A stretch of 49,075 nt of DNA, taken from an uncultured Pelagibacteraceae bacterium (GTDB lineage: Bacteria > Pseudomonadota > Alphaproteobacteria > Pelagibacterales > Pelagibacteraceae). Position numbers and translations under genes: made by a program. Positions 22,757-31,818 of the stretch are shown here, piece after piece; position 1 is the stretch's first letter, and each line of letters starts with the position of its first letter. A model generated the notes under the pieces. It searched no databases. It saw only the letters and a program-made list of their open reading frames with translations, and was not told the origin of the DNA. Location of the stretch: assembly GCA_902583585.1 (NCBI GenBank), contig CACHWN010000008.1:1-49075 (forward strand). Direction: 5' to 3'.

Positions 22757-22770
22757 AGGGGCGTTCTGTT
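22757..22770. repeat. att copy 1: left boundary of cassette array
   Basis: AGGGGCGTTCTGTT, identical to the last 14 bases (on this strand) of the tmRNA coding piece at 31513-31526. It sits 9 bp after the GGCT stop. To its right the tmRNA match stops (TCTCGTCCC instead of GCCAGGTGCC), so this copy carries only the shared core; the right side belongs to cassette 1. Confidence 0.8.
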
Positions 22771-22817
22771 TCTCGTCCCTTGATTAATAATATACAGAAT
22801 ATAACACTTTTTCAAAA

Positions 22818-22883
22818 ACTTCGTGTAAAACTTCGTGTAGTGTTTTGCTCATTTTGCAGATTTCTTGACTTTCAACTGCGTGT
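22818..22883 (+). repeat. Left terminal iterons of cassette 1
   Basis: ACTTCGTGT at 22818-22826 and 22830-22838 (12-bp period), with a diverged third copy ACTGCGTGT at 22875-22883. The same exact pair recurs at the other end of the cassette. Probable protein-binding (arm-type) sites. Confidence 0.7.
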
Positions 22884-22927
22884 AATTCTTTCTTAATTTA
22901 TTATGAAATGCTAATCTACGTGAAAAT

Positions 22928-25003
22928 ATGAAACTTACAGATAATGAAAAAAGAGATTTAATTAAGTTAATAGAAAATAATCAACTTATTCCTGAAAATT
23001 TTCGATTCAAATTATTTAAAAAAAAAGATGAAATTGAACTTTTATGGAATGGAAAATCTTACGATACCACAAATGTTTCTCTGCCCTTTCAAATAATTGA
23101 ACACGTTGACGAACCAAGAGAAGAAAAAAAAATTGAAATTCAAGGTGACCTTTTTGACGATAGAGGCAGACAATTAAAAGGTTGGACAAATAAACTTATT
23201 TGGGGGAATAATAGTCTTGTTATTTCAAGTCTTATTAATGGTCCTTTAAGAAAAGAAATTGAGGAACAGGGTGGTTTAAAACTTGTTTATATTGATCCAC
23301 CATTTGATGTTGGAGACGATTTTGAATTTGATATCCAAGTAGGAAATGAAAAGTTACTTAAAAAAAGAAATGCTCTAGAACAACTTGCGTTTAGTGATAC
23401 ATGGGGAAAACAAGAAGATAGTTTTTTATCAATGATTTATGAGAGACTTAAATTGATAAAACAACTTTTAGCAAAAAATGGCAGCATATTTGTACATTGT
23501 GATTGGAGGGTGAATTCTTATTTAAAAACAATTTTAAATGAAATTTTTGGAGTGGAAAATTTTAGAAGAGAACTTATTTGGTTCAGAGATAATCCATCGG
23601 GAGGAAAATCAACAGCAAATAATTTTATTCATTCACACGATACTATTCTTTATTATACCTCATCTGAAAATTTTACGTTTAACAAACAATACGAAGAATA
23701 TGCAGAAAAATATTTAGAAAGATTTGATAAAGACGATAAAGATGGAAAAGGTCTTTATAGACTACAAGGTTCAGGCGATAATCTTCGTAAACAATATTTA
23801 AAGGATTCAAAAGGCAAAATTATGCAGAGTGTAATTGAAATTCCAAATATAAACGTAATGGCGAAAGAGAGATTGTATTACCCAACACAAAAACCTGAAA
23901 AACTTATTGAGATTATTATAAATTCTGCATCTAATGAAAATGATTTAATAGCAGATTTTTTTTGTGGATCAGGCACAACCTTAGCAGTTGCTGAAAAATG
24001 TAACAGAAAATGGTTGGGATGTGATCTTGGCAAATTTGCAATTCACACATCAAGAAAAAGATTAATTGATGTTCAAAGAGATAAAAAAGATTTAGGTAAA
24101 AACTATCGCGCCTTCGAAATTTTAAATGTTGGAAAATATCAAAGAGAGTTTTTTTTTAAAGATTATCTTTTCAAAGAAAGAAATTTGAAAAATAAAGGAA
24201 GCGAAGACCACTATTATTCTATTGTCTTGTCAGCATACAAAGCAAAGTCTGTTGACAATTTGAATACCTTAAAAGGTGTAAAAAACAATAGATTTATTGC
24301 AATTGGTCCTTTTAATCTTCAAGTGACGAGAATGTTTGTTGAAAAAATTATTGAGGAATGTATTCAAAAAAAAATAACCAAAGTAGACGTATTAGGTTTC
24401 GAATTTGAGATGGGTCTATTTCCAAATATTCGTGATTACGCTAAAACCAAAAATGTAGATTTAAATTGTTTATATATTCCAAATGAAGTTTTTGATAAAA
24501 ATGCTGTTAAAAAAAATCAAATAATTTTTTATAACACTGCATACATCGATGCAGAAATTATAAAAAAGAAAAAAGAATTTTCTGTAAGACTTAAAGGATA
24601 TTCAATTTTTGACAGTGAAAATTTATTTGAAGAGACTTTAACCGGAATGAAAAATGGTGAAAAAAGAGAAATTTTATTGAACAGTTCAATTATAAAGGTT
24701 CAAAAAGATAAAAAAGGAAAAATATCCAAACAAGTCATCAAAATGAAATGGAAAAATTGGATTGATTATTGGTCAGTCGATTTTGACTTCGAAAATAAAC
24801 AAGAAATTATAAAAGATGAGAATAACAAAGAAAAATGGACTGGTGATTATATCTTTGAAAATGAATGGCAATCTTTCAAAACTAAAGATAAAAAAGAATT
24901 AGATTTTGAAACTCCTCCAAGACCGATTAAAGAAGGTAAAAAAATTGCGATAAAAGTAATTGATATATTTGGAAACGATACAATGAAAATACTAAAAATA
25001 TAA
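22928..25003 (+). CDS. mod: Type III-like restriction system DNA-methyltransferase (Mod)
   Basis: Beta-class adenine-N6-type DNA methyltransferase of 691 aa. Catalytic motif IV is DPPF (residues 123-126, in YIDPPFDVGDDFEF), followed by the target-recognition region (~200-320) and the SAM-binding motif I FFCGSGTT (344-351); motif IV before motif I is the beta order. After ~390 comes a long C-terminal region of unclear role. The following gene starts 1 bp after the stop, forming a mod-res operon. Host DNA is presumably methylated by Mod at the site that Res-Mod cuts when unmodified; the site cannot be predicted. The flanking att repeats mark the pair as cargo. Confidence 0.92.
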   Translation: MKLTDNEKRDLIKLIENNQLIPENFRFKLFKKKDEIELLWNGKSYDTTNVSLPFQIIEHVDEPREEKKIEIQGDLFDDRGRQLKGWTNKLIWGNNSLVISSLINGPLRKEIEEQGGLKLVYIDPPFDVGDDFEFDIQVGNEKLLKKRNALEQLAFSDTWGKQEDSFLSMIYERLKLIKQLLAKNGSIFVHCDWRVNSYLKTILNEIFGVENFRRELIWFRDNPSGGKSTANNFIHSHDTILYYTSSENFTFNKQYEEYAEKYLERFDKDDKDGKGLYRLQGSGDNLRKQYLKDSKGKIMQSVIEIPNINVMAKERLYYPTQKPEKLIEIIINSASNENDLIADFFCGSGTTLAVAEKCNRKWLGCDLGKFAIHTSRKRLIDVQRDKKDLGKNYRAFEILNVGKYQREFFFKDYLFKERNLKNKGSEDHYYSIVLSAYKAKSVDNLNTLKGVKNNRFIAIGPFNLQVTRMFVEKIIEECIQKKITKVDVLGFEFEMGLFPNIRDYAKTKNVDLNCLYIPNEVFDKNAVKKNQIIFYNTAYIDAEIIKKKKEFSVRLKGYSIFDSENLFEETLTGMKNGEKREILLNSSIIKVQKDKKGKISKQVIKMKWKNWIDYWSVDFDFENKQEIIKDENNKEKWTGDYIFENEWQSFKTKDKKELDFETPPRPIKEGKKIAIKVIDIFGNDTMKILKI

Positions 25004-25004
25004 T

Positions 25005-27668
25005 ATGCCTTTACCTATTTCACCTTACGAAGTTATTGATCCAAAAGATAGATGGGTTCCATCAAAAAAATTAAAACAAAAAGATCTACAAGAAGTTCTT
25101 CCGCCTTTAGTTAAAAAGATTAGAGAAGATGTCAGCGAATGGAGAAAAAAAGACTATCCAAATATTTCTAATACATCTAAAGCATTAATAAAATGGTGGT
25201 TTTTTGAAGAACATGAAAACTTCAAATATTATTTTGCACAAAGGGAGTCCGTTGAAACAATCATATATTTATACGAAGTTGCTGGTATTAGAAACAAGGA
25301 TGATTTATATGAAAAATTTAATTCATATTCTGAACTAACTTTAAAGCATTTTAATGAGCATTGGTTAAGATTTGTTATTAAAATGGCAACTGGAAGTGGA
25401 AAAACAAAAGTAATGTCCCTTCTTCTTTTATGGAGTTATTTTAATAAGATTTATGAGGAGAATAGTGAGTTTAGTAGTAATTTTCTTATTATTGCTCCAA
25501 ACATTATTGTATTGGATAGACTCAAATCGGATTTTGATAATTTAAATATTTTTAGAAACGACCCTTGCATACCTGAGGATGGTTATGAAAATCAAAATTG
25601 GAAAATAGATTTTTTTAGCAAAGCAGAGGTTCATATTCAAAAACAAGTTAATGTAAAAAAAAAAATAGGAAATATATTTCTTACAAACATTCAACAAATT
25701 TATGGAAGTAGAGAAAAAGAACCCTCTTTGGAGGACGACGATACTACGGAATATTTCTTTGGTAAATCTGTTAAAGGAAAACTTGAAACAGATATTGATT
25801 TATTAAAAATTATTAAACAAATTGACGATGTAATAATAATGAATGATGAGGCACATCATATTAACGATGAACAACAAGCGTGGTATAAAACAATTGAGGG
25901 TATTCACAACAACTTAGGTCAACGAAATCTTAAATTAATAATGCAATTAGATTACACAGCAACTCCAAAACACAAAGACTCATCTATTTTTGTTCAAACT
26001 GTTTGTGATTATCCTTTAACAGAAGCAATTCATCAAAATATTGTTAAGAATATTGAAGTACCAGACAAAAAATCTAGAGATAAATTACAAGACTACCCTT
26101 CAACAAAATTTTCAGAGAAATGGAGAGATTATATTGATTTAGGATATCAAGAATGGAGGAAAAGTTATGATTTTCATCAAAAAACAAAAAAAAAAGCAAC
26201 TTTTTTCATAATGACAGATGACACAAAAAATTGTGATGACGTTTCAAGATTTCTAGAAAATAATTATGATGATTTGAAGGGTCAAGTTTTAACAATCCAT
26301 ACCAAAAATAATGGAGATTTGTATGAAAAATCCTCTGACTTGAAATCGATGAAATCAAAAGAAAATCTTAAAAAATTAAGAGAAAACGCAAATGATGTTG
26401 ATAATTATGATAATCCTTACAAAGTAATTGTATCTGTCTTAATGTTAAAAGAAGGTTGGGATGTAAACAATGTAACCACAATTGTGGGACTAAGACCTTA
26501 TGAGAAACCCAAAATATTGCCTGAGCAAACTTTAGGCAGAGGTCTTCGTAAAATGTATAGAGACTCAAATCTAAAAGAAAGGTTGACGGTAGTAGGCACT
26601 CCTAACTTTATGGAATTTGCAAGTGAATTACAGAAAGAAGGTGTAACTATTAGAGAAATAGAGATGGGAGAAGATATTGATAATCCATTTTATATTACCT
26701 CTGAAATCAAAGAAAACGATAAAGAAGTAGATAAACTAGATATTGAATTTCCCAATCTTGTTGAAAAAATTTTTAAAAATGAAGAAAAAATTTCTGAAAT
26801 CGATCCAAGTAAATTTAAATTTAAAATTGTTGAATATAAAAATATACAAAAGATTAAAAAGGAAAAAATTATATGGGAATATTCAGTCAGTAAAGAAATT
26901 AGTAGGGAGTCCGAATTTGAAAAAACTTATACATTAGACTCATACAACATTCTATCAGCGCTAGTTAAAGAAATTATGTTTGTATTAAAAATTCAGAAAG
27001 GACTAGGATTTGAAGTAATCTGCGATAAAACAAAAACTTTTATTGAAAACTATTTATTTGGGCAAAAAGTAGAGTTTGATAATGAAATTACTAAAGCAAA
27101 TTTATGTTCTTTGGAAACAAGAAAAACTATAATTGAGACAATGACCAATGAAATTAAGAAAGTCATAATTGATGAGAGGAGTGAGACTATTATTTCAAAA
27201 ATATTTAAGTTTTCGGAGGATAAAAGTAAGAGAATTAAAAACTTTGAAAAAGCAATTTATTTTGAACCAAAAAAAAGCGTATATACAAAACACTTTTTTG
27301 ATAGCAAATTTGAAGAAGAGGTTAACATTTATATTGATGGAATGCCGGATATTATTTCTTGCATAAAAAATATGGGTTATATCACAATTCCTTATCTTGA
27401 TAACAATGGTATTTGGAGAAATTATATTCCTGATTTTTTTGTAAAAGTAACTGATAATGAATATTGTATAATTGAGACTAAGGGTGCTGAACTAATAAAT
27501 GATCCAATTAAAAAGAATGCACTTGAAAAAAAATTAGAGGATATTAATAAAGTTCAAAATAAAATCAAATTCTCATCTCTTTATGTTTTATATGATGATT
27601 TTAATAGACTAGAAAATAAACCTTCTACATTTAAGAAATTCTACGAAATTTTTAAGAAAACTATGTAA
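25005..27668 (+). CDS. res: Type III-like restriction endonuclease subunit (Res), helicase plus nuclease
   Basis: An 887-aa SF2 translocase fused to a PD-(D/E)XK nuclease. Walker A is MATGSGKT (127-134), the DEAD-type box NDEAHH (280-285) follows, then DYTATPK (motif III), VLMLKEGWDVNN and QTLGRGLRK (motif VI with arginine finger). The nuclease centre is P-D810...E824-T-K826 (PD, 13 residues, ExK) near the C-terminus. All catalytic residues are present and the frame is intact, so the enzyme should be active. It works with the adjacent Mod. Defence against phage is the known role of such systems. Confidence 0.92.
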   Translation: MPLPISPYEVIDPKDRWVPSKKLKQKDLQEVLPPLVKKIREDVSEWRKKDYPNISNTSKALIKWWFFEEHENFKYYFAQRESVETIIYLYEVAGIRNKDDLYEKFNSYSELTLKHFNEHWLRFVIKMATGSGKTKVMSLLLLWSYFNKIYEENSEFSSNFLIIAPNIIVLDRLKSDFDNLNIFRNDPCIPEDGYENQNWKIDFFSKAEVHIQKQVNVKKKIGNIFLTNIQQIYGSREKEPSLEDDDTTEYFFGKSVKGKLETDIDLLKIIKQIDDVIIMNDEAHHINDEQQAWYKTIEGIHNNLGQRNLKLIMQLDYTATPKHKDSSIFVQTVCDYPLTEAIHQNIVKNIEVPDKKSRDKLQDYPSTKFSEKWRDYIDLGYQEWRKSYDFHQKTKKKATFFIMTDDTKNCDDVSRFLENNYDDLKGQVLTIHTKNNGDLYEKSSDLKSMKSKENLKKLRENANDVDNYDNPYKVIVSVLMLKEGWDVNNVTTIVGLRPYEKPKILPEQTLGRGLRKMYRDSNLKERLTVVGTPNFMEFASELQKEGVTIREIEMGEDIDNPFYITSEIKENDKEVDKLDIEFPNLVEKIFKNEEKISEIDPSKFKFKIVEYKNIQKIKKEKIIWEYSVSKEISRESEFEKTYTLDSYNILSALVKEIMFVLKIQKGLGFEVICDKTKTFIENYLFGQKVEFDNEITKANLCSLETRKTIIETMTNEIKKVIIDERSETIISKIFKFSEDKSKRIKNFEKAIYFEPKKSVYTKHFFDSKFEEEVNIYIDGMPDIISCIKNMGYITIPYLDNNGIWRNYIPDFFVKVTDNEYCIIETKGAELINDPIKKNALEKKLEDINKVQNKIKFSSLYVLYDDFNRLENKPSTFKKFYEIFKKTM

Positions 27669-27709
27669 TTGTTTGAATTGAAACTATAATGGTTGTTTAA
27701 AGACTTCAA

Positions 27710-27730
27710 ACTTCGTGTAAAACTTCGTGT
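27710..27730 (+). repeat. Right terminal iterons of cassette 1
   Basis: ACTTCGTGT at 27710-27718 and 27722-27730, same orientation and same 12-bp period as at the left end. The last base lies 47 bp before att copy 2, close to the 45-bp interval seen in cassettes 2 and 3. Confidence 0.75.
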
Positions 27731-27777
27731 TGTTCCTAAATTGATATTTGAATTGGATTAACGGTTTCCGTTGGTTT

Positions 27778-27802
27778 AGGGGCGTTCTGTTGCCAGGTGC
27801 CC
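27778..27802. repeat. att copy 2
   Basis: 24 bp identical to the tmRNA 3' end at 31513-31536 (AGGGGCGTTCTGTT followed by GCCAGGTGCC) plus one more C. Beyond it the sequence (TTAACCTTTTAACGTTATA) matches the left end of cassette 3 closely and the tmRNA only weakly. Confidence 0.85.
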
Positions 27803-27863
27803 TTAACCTTTTAACGTTATACAACAATTCTAGATCATAAAAAACGGCTTTTTCTTTGCTGGG

Positions 27864-27893
27864 TGTGATCGTATTGTGATCCAAAGTGTGATC
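27864..27893 (+). repeat. Left terminal iterons of cassette 2
   Basis: TGTGATC at 27864-27870, 27875-27881 and 27887-27893, with 11- and 12-bp periods, so all copies lie on nearly one face of the helix. The array ends 15 bp before the first gene and covers its probable promoter. Confidence 0.78.
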
Positions 27894-27902
27894 CAATATA
27901 TT
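27874..27902 (+). promoter_or_regulatory. Possible cassette 2 promoter inside the iterons
   Basis: TTGTGA at 27874-27879 and TATATT at 27897-27902 are 17 bp apart. The -35 box is part of the second iteron and the third iteron lies in the spacer. Start of transcription would fall on or beside the ATG at 27909, implying a leaderless message. A protein bound to the iterons would block this promoter. Inference from motifs only. Confidence 0.4.
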
Positions 27903-27908
27903 CATTAA

Positions 27909-28652
27909 ATGAAGATAGTTTCATGGAATATTAACGGAAGAGATAAAACTTTAGATTTTATATTAAAAAATTCTTTAAATGCCGATCTCTATTTGCTTCA
28001 AGAAGTTAAAGCTTCGAATAATCTAAATGAAAAAAATATTCTTTTTGATCAAATTAATCAGATTGATGGAGAAAAAAGAAATTTCGGGAACTGCATTATT
28101 TCTTTCGGACCAGAAATTAATAGAACAGAAATTAATACTAAATATAAAGGGTCTTTAATAGTTTCAGAAATTATATCAGCAGACACAAAGATTGCTGTTA
28201 TCAATCTCTATGGTATTTTAACTACAATATCTAAGAACCAAAAAACAGTTGCGCCAAATATTCATAATATGCTCTCAGATCTTACACCTATCTTTTTAGG
28301 CTGGTCTGATGAAAAATTTAAAAGCTTTATTCTTGCAGGAGATTTTAATTTAGATAAACGCATGGATACTACTGAAGGCATGTATTGGAGAAAAGGTATG
28401 AGAACATCACAAATAATATTTGAAAGAATCGAGGACTTTTTATTAGAAGACTGTTTAATTAAAAAATACCCTAACTTTGTTCGAACATTTAGAAATAAAA
28501 GTGGTCGGGATAAAGTGCCTTGGCAGATTGATCATATGTTTGCTAGCAAAGATTTATATAATAAATTGCAAAAGATTGAAGTAGTAGAGAACGCAGAAAC
28601 TTCTGCTTTAAGTGATCACTACCCAATAATTGCAGAATTTGATATTAAATAA
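27909..28652 (+). CDS. Endonuclease/exonuclease/phosphatase (EEP) family nuclease
   Basis: 247-aa protein of the EEP superfamily (exonuclease III, DNase I and phosphatases). It begins KIVSWNINGRD with the conserved Asn, has metal-binding Glu32 in LLQEVK, the catalytic loop AGDFN (G144-N147), QIDHMF, and the terminal S-D236-H237 of LSDHYP. The full catalytic set argues for an active metal-dependent phosphodiesterase. It is the first gene of cassette 2; the next starts 2 bp after its stop, so they form an operon. In this setting I infer a DNA- or RNA-cutting defence partner rather than a repair enzyme, but the substrate is unknown. Confidence 0.82.
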   Translation: MKIVSWNINGRDKTLDFILKNSLNADLYLLQEVKASNNLNEKNILFDQINQIDGEKRNFGNCIISFGPEINRTEINTKYKGSLIVSEIISADTKIAVINLYGILTTISKNQKTVAPNIHNMLSDLTPIFLGWSDEKFKSFILAGDFNLDKRMDTTEGMYWRKGMRTSQIIFERIEDFLLEDCLIKKYPNFVRTFRNKSGRDKVPWQIDHMFASKDLYNKLQKIEVVENAETSALSDHYPIIAEFDIK

Positions 28653-28654
28653 AC

Positions 28655-29602
28655 ATGAAAAGATACTGGTGGGTTAATCAGAGAGGCCATTTCTTCTTTG
28701 AAGAAACAAAGTTAGGATGTATTTGGGCCCCAAAAAAAAATGCTAGAGGAAGAACCCCATTTCATTGGCAAACCCTAACCAAAGTTAGGCCAAACGATAT
28801 TATTTTTTCATATCATAAAAAGAAAATTGCAGCTGTGGGGATTGCTATCTCAAAAGCATACAACGCAGATCGACCCGATTCTTTTCCTTCAAAAAAATAT
28901 TTATCTCAAAGGAGAAAAAGAACTGGTGAAGGCTGGAACATGAAAGGACGAAAAGTTAATGTTAATTATAAATTCTTAGATAATCATGTTGATATTAAAA
29001 AAATATTTGAAAAAATAAAAAATCATTTAAACTATAAGCATAGCCCTTATAGCGTTAATTTTAAGAGAGGGAATTTAGGATATTTATTTTATTTAAATCC
29101 TTTAGCCGCAGAGATTATAAGGCAAGAAATTGATAGCAAGGATAGTATCACTGTTGATCAAAAAATATCTGACGCTGACTCAGAAATAAATATTTCATCC
29201 GGCAAGACTGATGCAATAAGAAAACAAAAAATGAGATTAAAACAAGGTGAATTTCGAATAAATGTTCTAAATCTTTGGAACAACAAATGTTGTGTTACCG
29301 ATTTAAAAGAAAAAAATCCTTCCTTGTTGGTAGCGGCTCATATTTGGCCTTATATGCATTGTGAAAACAATAAACAAAAAATTGATAGATACAATGGTCT
29401 TCCACTAGTACCGGGATACGATAAAGCATTCGATAAAGGTTATATTTCTTTTTCTGATAATGGAGAAATAATAAAATCTAATAAAATTGAGGAGGAAGAA
29501 CTGATAAAACTTGGAATTGATTTAGATAAAAAGATATCTGGACTTTCTTCAAAACATAAATTTTATTTAAAAAAACATAGAAAACTTCACGGATTTAATT
29601 AA
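28655..29602 (+). CDS. HNH endonuclease with N-terminal EVE/PUA-like domain (putative modification-dependent restriction enzyme)
   Basis: 315 aa in two parts. The C-terminal ~110 residues are an HNH nuclease of the type with CVTD, the catalytic His229 in LVAAHIWP, N247 in YNGLPLVPGYD and KAFDKGYISF. The N-terminal ~150 residues start RYWWVNQRGHFF and contain GCIWAP, HW, NDIIFSYHKKKIAAVGIA, a pattern like EVE or related PUA-like domains that bind modified bases. The EVE part is a pattern-based guess; the HNH part is solid. If right, the enzyme would cut DNA carrying modified bases, as many phages do. The paired EEP gene 2 bp upstream suggests joint action. Confidence 0.75.
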   Translation: MKRYWWVNQRGHFFFEETKLGCIWAPKKNARGRTPFHWQTLTKVRPNDIIFSYHKKKIAAVGIAISKAYNADRPDSFPSKKYLSQRRKRTGEGWNMKGRKVNVNYKFLDNHVDIKKIFEKIKNHLNYKHSPYSVNFKRGNLGYLFYLNPLAAEIIRQEIDSKDSITVDQKISDADSEINISSGKTDAIRKQKMRLKQGEFRINVLNLWNNKCCVTDLKEKNPSLLVAAHIWPYMHCENNKQKIDRYNGLPLVPGYDKAFDKGYISFSDNGEIIKSNKIEEEELIKLGIDLDKKISGLSSKHKFYLKKHRKLHGFN

Positions 29603-29607
29603 TTCAC

Positions 29608-29625
29608 TGTGATCCTATTGTGATC
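29608..29625 (+). repeat. Right terminal iterons of cassette 2
   Basis: TGTGATC at 29608-29614 and 29619-29625, an 11-bp period, in the same orientation as the left set. They end 45 bp before att copy 3. They align without gaps to the cassette 3 right iterons, where the central AT is CC. Confidence 0.78.
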
Positions 29626-29670
29626 TAATTAAAAAAAGTTGTGAATTAATAAGTGTTAACGCCATTACGC

Positions 29671-29694
29671 AGGGGCGTTCTGTTGCCAGGTGCC
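29671..29694. repeat. att copy 3
   Basis: Perfect 24-bp copy of the tmRNA 3' end (31513-31536). The 40 bp on its left also match those left of copy 4: 29631-29694 and 31473-31536 agree at 61 of 64 positions. Its right side (TTTAACCTTTAACGTTATA) resembles the right side of copy 2. Confidence 0.88.
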
Positions 29695-29755
29695 TTTAAC
29701 CTTTAACGTTATATAATAATTCTTGAGTTTAAAATACTCAAATTTCTTTGGCGGC

Positions 29756-29784
29756 TGTGTCCAAATTGGACCCTAATTGTGCCC
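29756..29784 (+). repeat. Left terminal iterons of cassette 3
   Basis: TGTGTCC at 29756-29762, TGGACCC at 29767-29773 and TGTGCCC at 29778-29784: three related heptamers at an exact 11-bp period. The distance from the att copy (61 bp) equals that in cassette 2 (62 bp). Confidence 0.7.
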
Positions 29785-29807
29785 AACTTAAAAGTTAAAA
29801 ATAATTA

Positions 29808-30137
29808 GTGATAAAAATACTTAAGTACTTTTTCTTCTCAATTTTTCTTTCATTTTTTATTGCAATTGTTTTAGCTTTAATTTTTGCACCTGAAGATCGT
29901 GAATGGGTTAAATGTTCGGATGAAAAAGATTTATATCGATATGTTTATGATGGATGGAAAATTGATAAAGTTTTAAAAAACGGAGATATCACTTATACGG
30001 ATTCAGGACAAAAACTTTTTTATAAAGGTGAATATCCTCAAATATACCTATCAAAAAACGACAGAATAAAAGCATTGAACTTTGGTTGGAGGTGTTATTA
30101 TCTTGAAGGCGCAGAGTTAAACTTTAAAAAAAAATGA
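29808..30137 (+). CDS. Hypothetical membrane-anchored protein (cassette 3, gene 1)
   Basis: 109 aa from a GTG start. One hydrophobic segment (about residues 5-26) is followed by a polar domain with EDREWVKCSDEKDLYRY, paired aromatic residues and GWRCYYLEGAEL near the end. The two cysteines (in VKCSDE and WRCYY) could form a disulfide if that domain is outside the membrane. No family recognised. Its stop overlaps the next ATG by 4 bp (ATGA), so the two are translationally coupled. Confidence 0.6.
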   Translation: MIKILKYFFFSIFLSFFIAIVLALIFAPEDREWVKCSDEKDLYRYVYDGWKIDKVLKNGDITYTDSGQKLFYKGEYPQIYLSKNDRIKALNFGWRCYYLEGAELNFKKK

Positions 30138-30397
30138 AAGATAATGATAAAATGATTTGGCCTCCTCCAATACCAAGAGTTTATAGGGATCACCGAAAAT
30201 TTATTTATCAACTAACTGTCTCTAAAACACTCACACACTCAAACAAAGACAAAGAAGGCAAGAAACATTGGTGCGTTGTACAATTTAGAAATATTTCTCC
30301 ACCTCAGCCGATGAATTCCTGGAACTTTGAAACCAAAGAAGAAGCAGAGGATTTTATGAAGAAAAATAATATGGTATCTTTAGAAAATCAAAATTAA
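30134..30397 (+). CDS. Hypothetical protein (cassette 3, gene 2)
   Basis: 87 aa, soluble, no family recognised. It is basic and aromatic at the start (MIWPPPIPRVYRDHRKFIYQ), has a central KHWCVVQF strand-like stretch, and ends in NFETKEEAEDFMKKNN, which looks like a helix capping a small alpha/beta fold. Start is fixed by the ATGA overlap with gene 1. Confidence 0.6.
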   Translation: MKDNDKMIWPPPIPRVYRDHRKFIYQLTVSKTLTHSNKDKEGKKHWCVVQFRNISPPQPMNSWNFETKEEAEDFMKKNNMVSLENQN

Positions 30398-30412
30398 AAA
30401 GGATAAGTATTA

Positions 30413-30799
30413 ATGTCTTTTGAACAAAGTATCTACGATAAAAGAAATGAATTCTACAAAAAATTTGCTAATGAATTCTTTCACAAAGATTTTTGGAAAA
30501 AAGTTAAAGAACAAGATTTGCAAGATTGTTGTTTTCTATGCCAATTTTATAAAGTTATAAAGTTTAGGTGTGATACAGATGATAACGAAACATCAAAAAT
30601 AGCATTTGATAGCATGAAAAAAAAATGTCTTGGAAGCTTGAAGTATGAAAAGTTTAAAGAGGAGTTAGATTTAAATTTAAGCAAACATACTGGTTTCAAA
30701 AGTCGTTTTGGTGAGAGAAGAGACTACATGAATTATTTTCATGCTCAATATCTAGACTGGGAGCTAAAAATGCTTAACGATGGATATATTAATGTATGA
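30413..30799 (+). CDS. Hypothetical Cys-containing protein (cassette 3, gene 3)
   Basis: 128 aa, helical and charged, with a cluster DCCFLCQFY (CC-x2-C) followed by FRCDTDD and KKCLGS. This could bind a metal but matches no motif I can name. A purine-rich AAAAAGGA lies about 10 bp upstream of the ATG. The stop overlaps the next gene. Confidence 0.6.
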   Translation: MSFEQSIYDKRNEFYKKFANEFFHKDFWKKVKEQDLQDCCFLCQFYKVIKFRCDTDDNETSKIAFDSMKKKCLGSLKYEKFKEELDLNLSKHTGFKSRFGERRDYMNYFHAQYLDWELKMLNDGYINV

Positions 30800-31172
30800 A
30801 TTGTTTGCAAATCTTTCATTAATTGCACATTTAATATTTATCTTATTTGTTATTTTTGGTGGATTGCTCTTCTTTATTTTTTCAAAAGTATTCTATATTC
30901 ATCTTCCTGCATTATTATGGGGAATTTATATAGAACTAACTAATTCTGTTTGCCCATTAACCTATTTAGAAAATTGGTTTTTGAATAAAGCCGAGTTAAC
31001 AACTTATTCTAATGGTTTTATCAACAACTATCTTTATCCAATAATTTATCCCGAGGGCTTAACTAATAACATTCAGATATATCTTGGCATAACATTGATA
31101 GTTATTAATATTTTAATATACGGATTTATTTTAAAAAATTTTCAAAGAAGAAAATTATTATTAAATAAATAG
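30780..31172 (+). CDS. DUF2784-like small membrane protein (cassette 3, gene 4)
   Basis: 130 aa with about four membrane segments. It resembles the DUF2784 family: LSLIAHLIFILFVIFGG at the start, HLPALLWGIYIELTNSVCPLTYLENWF in the middle and a late hydrophobic helix. Function of the family is unknown. The ATG at 30780 overlaps gene 3 by 20 bp; an in-frame ATG at 30792 (126 aa) gives an 8-bp overlap and is equally likely. Family call is from pattern recall. Confidence 0.68.
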   Translation: MDILMYELFANLSLIAHLIFILFVIFGGLLFFIFSKVFYIHLPALLWGIYIELTNSVCPLTYLENWFLNKAELTTYSNGFINNYLYPIIYPEGLTNNIQIYLGITLIVINILIYGFILKNFQRRKLLLNK

Positions 31173-31201
31173 TCGAATAATTAAGATAATTATGATATAA
31201 A

Positions 31202-31217
31202 AAATCAGTCCTGATTT
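31202..31217. repeat. Short perfect inverted repeat
   Basis: AAATCAG and CTGATTT separated by 2 bp, in the 93-bp gap before the last small gene of cassette 3. On the minus strand it is followed by a T-run. Could be an operator or a weak terminator for leftward transcription from the tmRNA; low GC in the stem argues against a strong terminator. Confidence 0.3.
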
Positions 31218-31265
31218 AGAACTAACTCTACTTGCTTGGACTTTAAACAAACGCTAAAGGAGAAA

Positions 31266-31439
31266 ATGAAACTAAAAATACAATCAATAAAAGACTATTT
31301 TAAATCAAAAAAAGACAAAGGTTTAAAACCAGTTTTTTTTAAAAAAATAGGTGATCAAAAAACATCTAGAGATGAGATGCTAAAAAATTTGATTAAAGTA
31401 TTAGAGTCTCAAGGTTTTAAGATTAAAAATAAAAAATAA
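31266..31439 (+). CDS. Hypothetical 57-aa basic protein (cassette 3, gene 5)
   Basis: Very Lys-rich (MKLKIQSIKDYFKSKKDKG...) with a C-terminal helix DEMLKNLIKVLESQGFKIK. The clear ribosome-binding site AAAGGAG directly before the ATG at 31266 decides the start against an in-frame TTG at 31236. No family recognised; composition would allow nucleic-acid binding, but nothing specific shows it. Confidence 0.5.
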   Translation: MKLKIQSIKDYFKSKKDKGLKPVFFKKIGDQKTSRDEMLKNLIKVLESQGFKIKNKK

Positions 31440-31449
31440 ACTTTTTCAC

Positions 31450-31467
31450 TGTGCCCTATGTGTGCCC
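31450..31467 (+). repeat. Right terminal iterons of cassette 3
   Basis: TGTGCCC at 31450-31456 and 31461-31467, an 11-bp period, ending 45 bp before att copy 4. They occupy the same place as the two TGTGATC copies at the right end of cassette 2, with flanking bases conserved. Confidence 0.75.
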
Positions 31468-31512
31468 AAAGTTAAAAAAGTTGTGAATTAATAAGTGTTA
31501 ATGCCAATACGC

Positions 31513-31536
31513 AGGGGCGTTCTGTTGCCAGGTGCC
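31513..31536. repeat. att copy 4: tmRNA 3' end, the presumed attachment site
   Basis: The 3'-terminal stem-loop of the tmRNA coding piece, read on the minus strand as GGGGCACCTGGCAACAGAAC then GCCCC. This is the copy still joined to the functional tmRNA gene. Each insertion would restore it, so the host keeps a working tmRNA. Confidence 0.85.
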
Positions 31537-31770
31537 CCAAACCCCGTAACTTAATTAACTAAGTTAATTAAGCTGCAAGTGCAAATTTTTGATTTGCATT
31601 TATAAATTAGCCCGTTACGTCGGAACCATCTCGTACGAAAGAACAGCCTTTAGACACCCGTCGATCCTAATTCACCCCCGTAAGTTGTAAATGGTGGAGG
31701 TGGTGGGTACTGCCCCCACGTCCGTGATGTTTATTACGAAATTCGTTTATCGTCATAGTTGGAAAACCAA
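31513..31770 (-). ncRNA. ssrA: Two-piece (circularly permuted) tmRNA
   Basis: Read on the minus strand. The acceptor piece comes first (~31770-31692), with a GTTGG/CCAAC hairpin, CGGACGTGGG, a T arm GTGGG-GGCAGTA-CCCAC and the 3' end CACCTCCACCA. After only 12 nt (31691-31680) the coding piece starts with GGGGGTGAATTAGGATCGAC; GGGGGTG pairs with CACCTCC, restoring the tRNA-like acceptor stem. The tag frame is at 31597-31568, GCA AAT CAA AAA TTT GCA CTT GCA GCT TAA, giving ANQKFALAA after the charged alanine. A 10-bp hairpin (CTTAATTAAC/GTTAATTAAG) and a final GGGGC/GCCCC stem close it. Permuted tmRNA is typical of Alphaproteobacteria. It rescues stalled ribosomes with SmpB. Exact 5' end inferred from the promoter. 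Confidence 0.92.
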
Positions 31771-31775
31771 CTCTA

Positions 31776-31805
31776 TTAATATAAAACTCTTTTGAAGAGA
31801 TTCAA
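31776..31805 (-). promoter_or_regulatory. Possible tmRNA promoter
   Basis: On the minus strand TTGAAT (31805-31800) and TATTAA (31781-31776) are 18 bp apart. Transcription would begin near 31770, at the base of the first acceptor-piece hairpin. It lies directly before the thyX start on the other strand. Confidence 0.45.
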
Positions 31806-31818
31806 TAATTAATTCAAT

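Follow-up and report, generated by a model that had tools for sequence, protein, structure and literature searches.

Cassette-specific paired repeats in a SAR11 ssrA array as probable arm-type sites of tyrosine integrases

Lambda-type phage attachment sites (attP) harbour arm sites, short direct repeats about one helical turn apart that lie on both flanks of the core. Elements without integration genes located between tandem attachment (att) copies, known as cis-mobilisable elements (CIMEs), and their tandem accretion are described in the available parts of two reports, together with 15 ssrA islands of Dehalococcoides that lack an integration module and for which a serine recombinase is used (PMC5704250, PMC3146451). 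In marine bacteria, additive flexible genomic islands receive gene cassettes at tRNA genes, according to the accessible parts of three papers (PMC7771536, PMC10872708, PMC4119200). Islands located just downstream of the transfer-messenger RNA (tmRNA) gene, with direct repeats, intY and defence genes, are moved by jumbo phages, as described in the portion available of PMC12595487. Streamlined aquatic bacteria swap small gene cassettes at tRNA-type genes, and the moving enzyme is not named in the literature examined, which was available in part. No integron attC sites were found in SAR11 hypervariable regions, as reported in the accessible part of PMC2217521. Here we describe a stretch of 49,075 nucleotides from a SAR11 (Pelagibacteraceae) genome, referred to as the window, in which three tandem cassettes bounded by copies of the ssrA 3′ end carry a short direct repeat, or tag, inside both ends. 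These repeats probably represent arm-type sites for tyrosine integrases. Cassettes that lack an integrase would have kept them, which could allow a matching integrase to mobilise the cassette in trans.

Arm sites, CIMEs, ssrA islands and additive cassette islands are already known. Similar to lambda-type attP, the repeats of the window lie inside the element and flank the core, with two copies on one side and three on the other in cassettes 2 and 3. Unlike lambda-type attP, many arm sequences occur here with one core in one array, and nearly all of the cassettes are without a detectable integrase. As in CIMEs, no integrase gene is present between attL and attR in the window cassettes. However, SAR11 units are often shorter than 1 kb and the armed ones possess paired tags, and arm tags are not described in the available parts of the reports on CIMEs and Dehalococcoides. 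Neither arm sites nor cognate integrases are described for the tRNA cassettes of additive islands in the parts of those papers at hand, and the target here is ssrA. The tmRNA islands with intY encode their own integrase, as far as the accessible text of that report goes, whereas the window cassettes do not. A phage satellite, such as the phage-inducible chromosomal minimalist islands (PICMIs), has its own integrase together with replication or packaging genes. The element L391 described below resembles these in its integrase, its primase/helicase-like protein and its terminase small subunit; in contrast, Pfam and PADLOC gave no integrase, replication or packaging matches in the window cassettes. 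The array also differs from an integron array, since no PF00589 match was detected in the genome of the window (83% complete) and the site common to its cassettes is the 3′ end of ssrA; no search for attC sites was made. In the partial and mostly open literature consulted, we found no description of SAR11 ssrA arrays, of SAR11 phage satellites or of tags sorting integrase-less cassettes.

The window is contig 8 of genome G000, which comprises 922 kb in 25 contigs and whose SAR11 kinship is based on relatives named Pelagibacteraceae. Apart from the ssrA gene itself, three copies of the ssrA 3′ end were found, all of them bounding the cassettes (Table 1), and no others were present genome-wide (at most one mismatch in 13 nt). 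Each cassette has its own repeat of 7-9 bp, with copies 11-12 bp apart inside both ends. Measured from GGGGCGTTCTG, the copies lie at +60/+72/+117 on the left and -68/-56 on the right in cassette 1, at +85/+96/+108 and -64/-53 in cassette 2, and at 84/95/106 and -64/-53 in cassette 3. The original prediction for this DNA had placed cassette-specific direct repeats at this spacing at both ends of each cassette, with three left and two right copies in cassettes 2 and 3, and its coordinates were borne out. For the TGTGYCC-type triplet proposed in cassette 3, the coordinates and the outer copies stand, and the middle left copy is the degenerate TGGACCC. The degenerate third left copy of cassette 1, ACTGCGTGT, had not been listed; ACTTCGTGT occupies this position in L194_7, L206_6, L209_5 and L050_3.

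The sequence ACTTCGTGT has four copies in the window against 0.10 expected, all of them at the ends of cassette 1. TGTGATC has seven copies against 3.4 expected (at least seven in 10 of 100 shuffles), five of which are those of cassette 2 in Table 1, and TGTGYCC has four against 2.7 expected. Taken singly, the heptamers are not rare in the window; their tandem pairing at both ends is.

The genome-wide frequency of att copies was assessed in 168 same-genus genomes, many of them incomplete: at least two copies were found in 99 genomes, at least four in 43, ten in one and none in 29. From 77 of 160 loci (two of the 160, from Rhodobiaceae, yielded none) we obtained 197 distinct ssrA cassettes, leaving out units below 190 bp or above 12 kb and duplicates of the same ends. 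A tandem pair was present in the right-end search window of 69 of the 197 cassettes, compared with 43 of 610 interior windows. After removal of 14 right-end pairs scoring below 6, the 55 best armed cassettes remained. The right-end tag recurs at least twice (at most one mismatch) in the cassette's own left end in 34 of these 55, and in the left ends of other cassettes in a mean of 11%. Left-right matches totalled 93 versus a permuted mean of 23.8 and maximum of 41, and the observed total was reached in none of 300 permutations. When one cassette per tag was considered, 11 of 15 matched versus a permuted mean of 1.2 (reached in none of 1000 permutations). Matching tags include TGTGATC, TGTGCCA, TGAGTCC, TGCGTC, ATCCCGT, ATTCCGA, GGACGAG, TTACGTG, TTCCGCC, ACTTCGTGT, GTACATAG and TTCATAG. 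A cassette thus tends to have one tag at its two ends, and this tag varies from cassette to cassette.

The tags follow two geometries. Geometry A has left copies at +85/+96/+107 and right copies at -64/-53, with variants near -77/-66; geometry B has left copies at +60/+72/+117 and, on the right, -80/-69/-57 or part of it. Among class A cassettes, the left att has at most two mismatches to 23 nt of ssrA in 43 of 45 cases (at least 21 nt matched), whereas all ten class B left att copies have six to seven mismatches (16-17 nt matched). Tag geometry thus tracks how far the att core extends, which is what one would expect of two integrase families.

In agreement with the original prediction, the motifs are not common chromosome-wide. 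The ACTTCGTGT pair has seven occurrences in 3 of 168 genomes, every one within an ssrA array. The TGTGATC pair has 29 occurrences in 20 of 168 genomes. Of these, 26 belong to 102 same-genus genomes, and all 26 lie beside cassette att sites: 23 by ssrA att copies (offsets -74, -64, +85, +95 or +96) and three beside tRNA-Glu or in a unit flanked by tRNA-Glu fragments. Among the remaining three pairs, that of G290 was not inspected, that of G304 had no tRNA in the stretch read, and that of G243 is beside tRNA-Ser. Since TGTGATC is found at both ssrA and tRNA-Glu, the tag is a mark of cassette ends that can accompany more than one core.

Natural swaps of tags were also present. Homologous type III restriction-modification cassettes, detected with blastn, differ in the tag found at their two ends: it is ACTTCGTGT in cassette 1 of the window and L209_5, but TTCATAGTA in L205_2. 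The left part and first gene of cassette 2 recur in L196_4 and L202_1, with arms at both ends and other, mixed tags. On the expectation that orthologous cassettes keep the motif at both ends, the evidence is mixed: arms remain at both ends in the type III and the cassette 2-related units, but in L080_3, related to the left part of cassette 3, left arms are present and right arms are not recognisable.

Integrases beside such tags belong to two classes. With profile A1, twelve full-length relatives of class A, of about 330 amino acids (aa), were found in 397 SAR11-family genomes, including the first four examined. Among these four elements, L384, L387 and L391 are located at tRNA genes with tandem heptamers beside att, and L392 has no exact pair there. 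An exact tag pair 11-12 bp apart between att and the start codon is present for eight of the twelve, with eight different tags, and the tag recurs at least twice at the distal end in five of the eight elements whose distal end was inspected. At ssrA, the element L425 (G488) encodes a class A integrase and has TGACGCC at -75/-64. The 4.6-kb cassette L145_1 of another genome possesses TGACGCC at +98/+109 and once at -64, without an integrase match, and its right flank has two blocks in common with that of L425. Integrase-less cassettes may have arisen by integrase loss. L145_1 and L425 share the tag and parts of the right flank; a comparable parent was not found for the window cassettes.

The class A element L391 (8742-15850), at tRNA-Met of G218, encodes an integrase, an AAA_25 primase/helicase-like protein and a terminase small subunit; with the latter two it looks like a phage satellite. 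Next to it lies a 1.4-kb unit that has the same att and no integrase, and after this comes a third att; TGACACA tags are present at all of these ends. The tandem pair is only suggestive of mobilisation with or by another element. Ahead of the portion of the integrase profile that aligns to lambda Int 70-343 there are about 53 positions, and an arm-binding N-terminal domain is only suggested.

The second class, class B, was represented by L197_5, a 7.6-kb ssrA cassette of a same-genus genome (G048) which encodes a 409-aa protein (L197:4980-6209). Neither Pfam nor PHROGs gave a meaningful match for this protein, and genome G048 yielded nothing with PF00589. A profile of four members aligned with the catalytic part of the class A integrases (hhalign 97.1%, E 6e-11), and by this comparison the class B protein is a tyrosine recombinase. 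Family members in L197, L439, L442 and L443 are about 410-430 aa long, and the gene ends beside the left arms. Counting L197_5, 6 of 397 genomes contain relatives. Three of these are located at ssrA, namely those of G048 and G531 and, as a broken copy, that of G523. PF00589-like models alone are not final for absence, since the first models missed the L197_5 integrase, which was found by reading of open reading frames (ORFs) and is matched by profile A2. A search of 5,012 ORFs from the window, the array loci and the viral loci with profiles of both classes (A2/A3) gave a single recombinase, that of L197_5; the class A profile gave none. The cassettes L222_1 and L053_1 share the att variant and a GTACATA-type tag with L197_5 and have no integrase match.

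The class B element L439 of G531 is headed by the same 22 nt as att copy 1 of cassette 1. Its arms, ACTTCGTTG with TCTTCGTTG as first copy, lie at +61/+73/+118 and -80/-69/-57, compared with ACTTCGTGT in cassette 1; the left tags are one base further from att and there are three right tags versus two. Beside its integrase, L439:7636-8373 encodes a T4/RB69 gp45-type sliding clamp (PHROG 1.5e-41; PDB 1b77, E 8e-13), which may mark L439 as a satellite of T4-like phages. The check originally proposed, to look for integrase-bearing elements at ssrA with one of the window heptamers at their ends, thus led to elements with tags of the same kind (L425, L197_5, L439), and none has an exact window tag.

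Under the preferred reading, an armed cassette would be a non-autonomous element with cargo and no integrase; its attP would consist of right and left arms on either side of a core with the same sequence as the 3′ end of ssrA. Because the core is common to all cassettes, the arm tag would decide which integrase assembles on which cassette. An integrase reading the tag would assemble on attP and recombine the core with ssrA; the ssrA 3′ end would be restored by recombination, so that units would accrete in tandem. A cassette without an integrase, be it through loss or from the outset, would keep its tag and depend on an element with a matching integrase. Such integrases would reside in rarer elements of at least two kinds, those of the class of about 330 aa and those of the divergent class of about 410-430 aa. 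The identity of the repeats as arm sites of tyrosine recombinases, as originally proposed, is well supported by comparative sequence data, namely the tags shared between left and right ends, the tagged integrase elements and the link of geometry to the att core. Binding by integrases, use in trans and current mobility would follow from this identity only by extension.

Several observations weigh against this reading. In the 397 family genomes no integrase was found with exactly TGTGATC, TGTGCCC or ACTTCGTGT, and the genome of the window (83% complete) yielded no integrase. Four of the twelve class A integrases have no exact proximal pair, three of eight elements have no tag pair at the distal end, and L425 is cut by a contig end, with one end seen only. 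The match to the arm-binding domain PF14657 was below threshold (E 0.2, in two of four N-termini). The right-end pair is absent from 128 of the 197 cassettes, and a left match is missing for 12 of the 55 armed ones. Cassettes 2 and 3 belong to the commonest end family, where no more than 7 of 15 have at least two matching places and TGTGATC, TGTGCCC and TGAGTCC are mixed; since the tags mix, those heptamers may be read by one enzyme. The original claim that the recognition sequence differs per cassette thus fits the left-right comparison in general, but the tags are not strictly one per cassette. Small pairless units also recur between arrays, such as a DUF2784 unit of 408-411 bp in 10 loci (e.g. 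L193_2, L201_1, L208_3), whose gene matches the DUF2784 gene inside cassette 3 (30780-31172). A recognisable pair is therefore not required for membership in an array. As most cassettes have no recognisable right-end pair and pairless units recur, either other routes exist or arms decay.

These points bear on an explanation that we regard as possible and rather doubtful, in which the repeats are former arm sites, the cassettes are stranded and moved by no integrase, and homologous recombination, at att copies or at flanks, is what alters the arrays. The rarity of integrases (twelve of class A, and class B in six, of 397 genomes; one recombinase among the array ORFs), the persistence and recurrence of units without a right-end pair, and mixed left and right tags that resemble recombined or fused units are in agreement with it. 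However, in many different cassettes the tags have remained intact, as pairs, at the two ends, homologous cargo was found with another tag at both ends, and the contents differ among the 99 genomes with at least two att copies. Tandem heptamers one helical turn apart are also found in operators, and some repeats lie upstream of ORFs. Nonetheless, it is very improbable that they are operators of a cassette-encoded regulator, as they occur at both ends, at fixed att distances and with different cargo, at ssrA as well as tRNA-Glu and beside integrases, and the repeat class tracks how much of the att core is present. Plasmid iterons typically consist of short direct repeats with helical spacing, and L439 has a weak Rep_1 match (PF01446, E 0.0026, below the cut-off). 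Replication iterons of an excised circle would nevertheless not need copies on each side of att at fixed distance, no Rep match was found in the window cassettes, and we give this explanation almost no credence.

The reading of the repeats as arm sites could be extended to an address system, in which one ssrA core serves many integrases that exclude each other, and exchangeable arm tags determine the cassette that a given parasite's integrase moves. Integrase-less cassettes, some with restriction genes, would then be hyperparasites of phage satellites, L439 with its sliding clamp would be at least one of their helpers, and their circles might ride a phage by integrating into its genome. We consider this extension unlikely. 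Eight viral contigs (L035-L042), chosen by exact att sequence, have att inside their own tmRNA gene, with one att copy per locus and no PF00589 match; since att lies within viral tmRNA genes, phage genomes hold an attB-like site. Viral relatives were limited to three for the class A profile, at 24-37% identity, and none for the class B protein, and the right-end flank of cassettes 2 and 3 had no match in viral contigs.

Other candidates were rejected. The two viral stretches with ACTTCGTGT pairs have no ssrA-like att nearby, nor do the viral TGTGATC-pair loci in 80 of at least 120 stretches, and neither was retained as a helper. Integrases of 408-587 aa found elsewhere (L385, L386, L388-L390, L393-L395, L430, L431) have no established shared tag, and the subset within L385-L395 has no ssrA att except for one match with three mismatches in L389 (L430 and L431 were not checked). 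L388 possesses a CTATGAA pair, which resembles the reverse complement of TTCATAG, and L389 possesses ACTTC-containing repeats.

Units with TGTGATC tags, flanked by tRNA-Glu fragments, were observed in G023 (L459:2434-5620) and G007 (L460). The tags are present at both ends of one G023 unit, whereas G007 shows a single end. A protein of 638 aa is encoded in the G023 unit; it has no PHROG match, and a P-loop-like motif was recognised in it by eye.

The features of the array are listed in Table 1. No recombinase match was found in the window cassettes with Pfam, PADLOC and the profiles of both integrase classes, nor has genome G000, at its 83% completeness, a match to either class. The PF00589 match is maybe missing from this genome through incompleteness. 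Most of the listed same-genus SAR11 genomes possess one PF00589 match near E 1e-21, mostly of about 325 aa where the frame is given, and this single protein is perhaps the chromosomal Xer recombinase.

Table 1. Features of the ssrA cassette array in the window (positions on the forward strand).
Feature	Coordinates	Strand	Evidence or remark
att copy 1, class B variant GGGGCGTTCTGTTTCTCGTCCC	22758-22779	+	left boundary of array and of cassette 1
Cassette 1 left arm sites, ACTTCGTGT x2 (22818, 22830)	22818-22838	+	
Cassette 1 third left arm copy, degenerate, ACTGCGTGT	22875-22883	+	offset +117
Cassette 1 type III restriction-modification methyltransferase (Mod)	22928-25003	+	PF01555 8.8e-45; PADLOC MTase_III 4e-105
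Cassette 1 type III restriction enzyme (Res)	25005-27668	+	PF04851 1.5e-16; PADLOC REase_III 1e-15
Cassette 1 right arm sites, ACTTCGTGT x2 (27710, 27722)	27710-27730	+	
att copy 2, ssrA 3′ end	27779-27803	+	
Cassette 2 left arm sites, TGTGATC x3 (27864, 27875, 27887)	27864-27893	+	
Cassette 2 endonuclease/exonuclease/phosphatase family protein	27909-28652	+	PF03372 7.8e-9; PADLOC: no match
Cassette 2 HNH endonuclease	28655-29602	+	PF13391 1.3e-7; PADLOC HNH 4e-24
Cassette 2 right arm sites, TGTGATC x2 (29608, 29619)	29608-29625	+	
att copy 3, ssrA 3′ end	29672-29696	+	
Cassette 3 left arm sites, TGTGTCC (29756), degenerate TGGACCC (29767), TGTGCCC (29778)	29756-29784	+	
Cassette 3 cargo, five ORFs (109, 87, 128, 130, 67 aa)	29808-31439	+	one DUF2784; recombinase match: none
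Cassette 3 right arm sites, TGTGCCC x2 (31450, 31461)	31450-31467	+	
ssrA, permuted alpha tmRNA	31510-31809	-	Rfam RF01849 213.9 bits; ARAGORN
att copy 4, ssrA 3′ end, presumed attB	31514-31538 (+ coordinates)		within ssrA gene

Paired tags would tie an integrase-less cassette to an integrase able to move it, from sequence alone. If this is true, the tags predict the mobile elements driving gene exchange in SAR11 and provide many pairs of arm and integrase for specificity testing, and they reveal a recombinase family whose examined member escapes Pfam and PHROGs.

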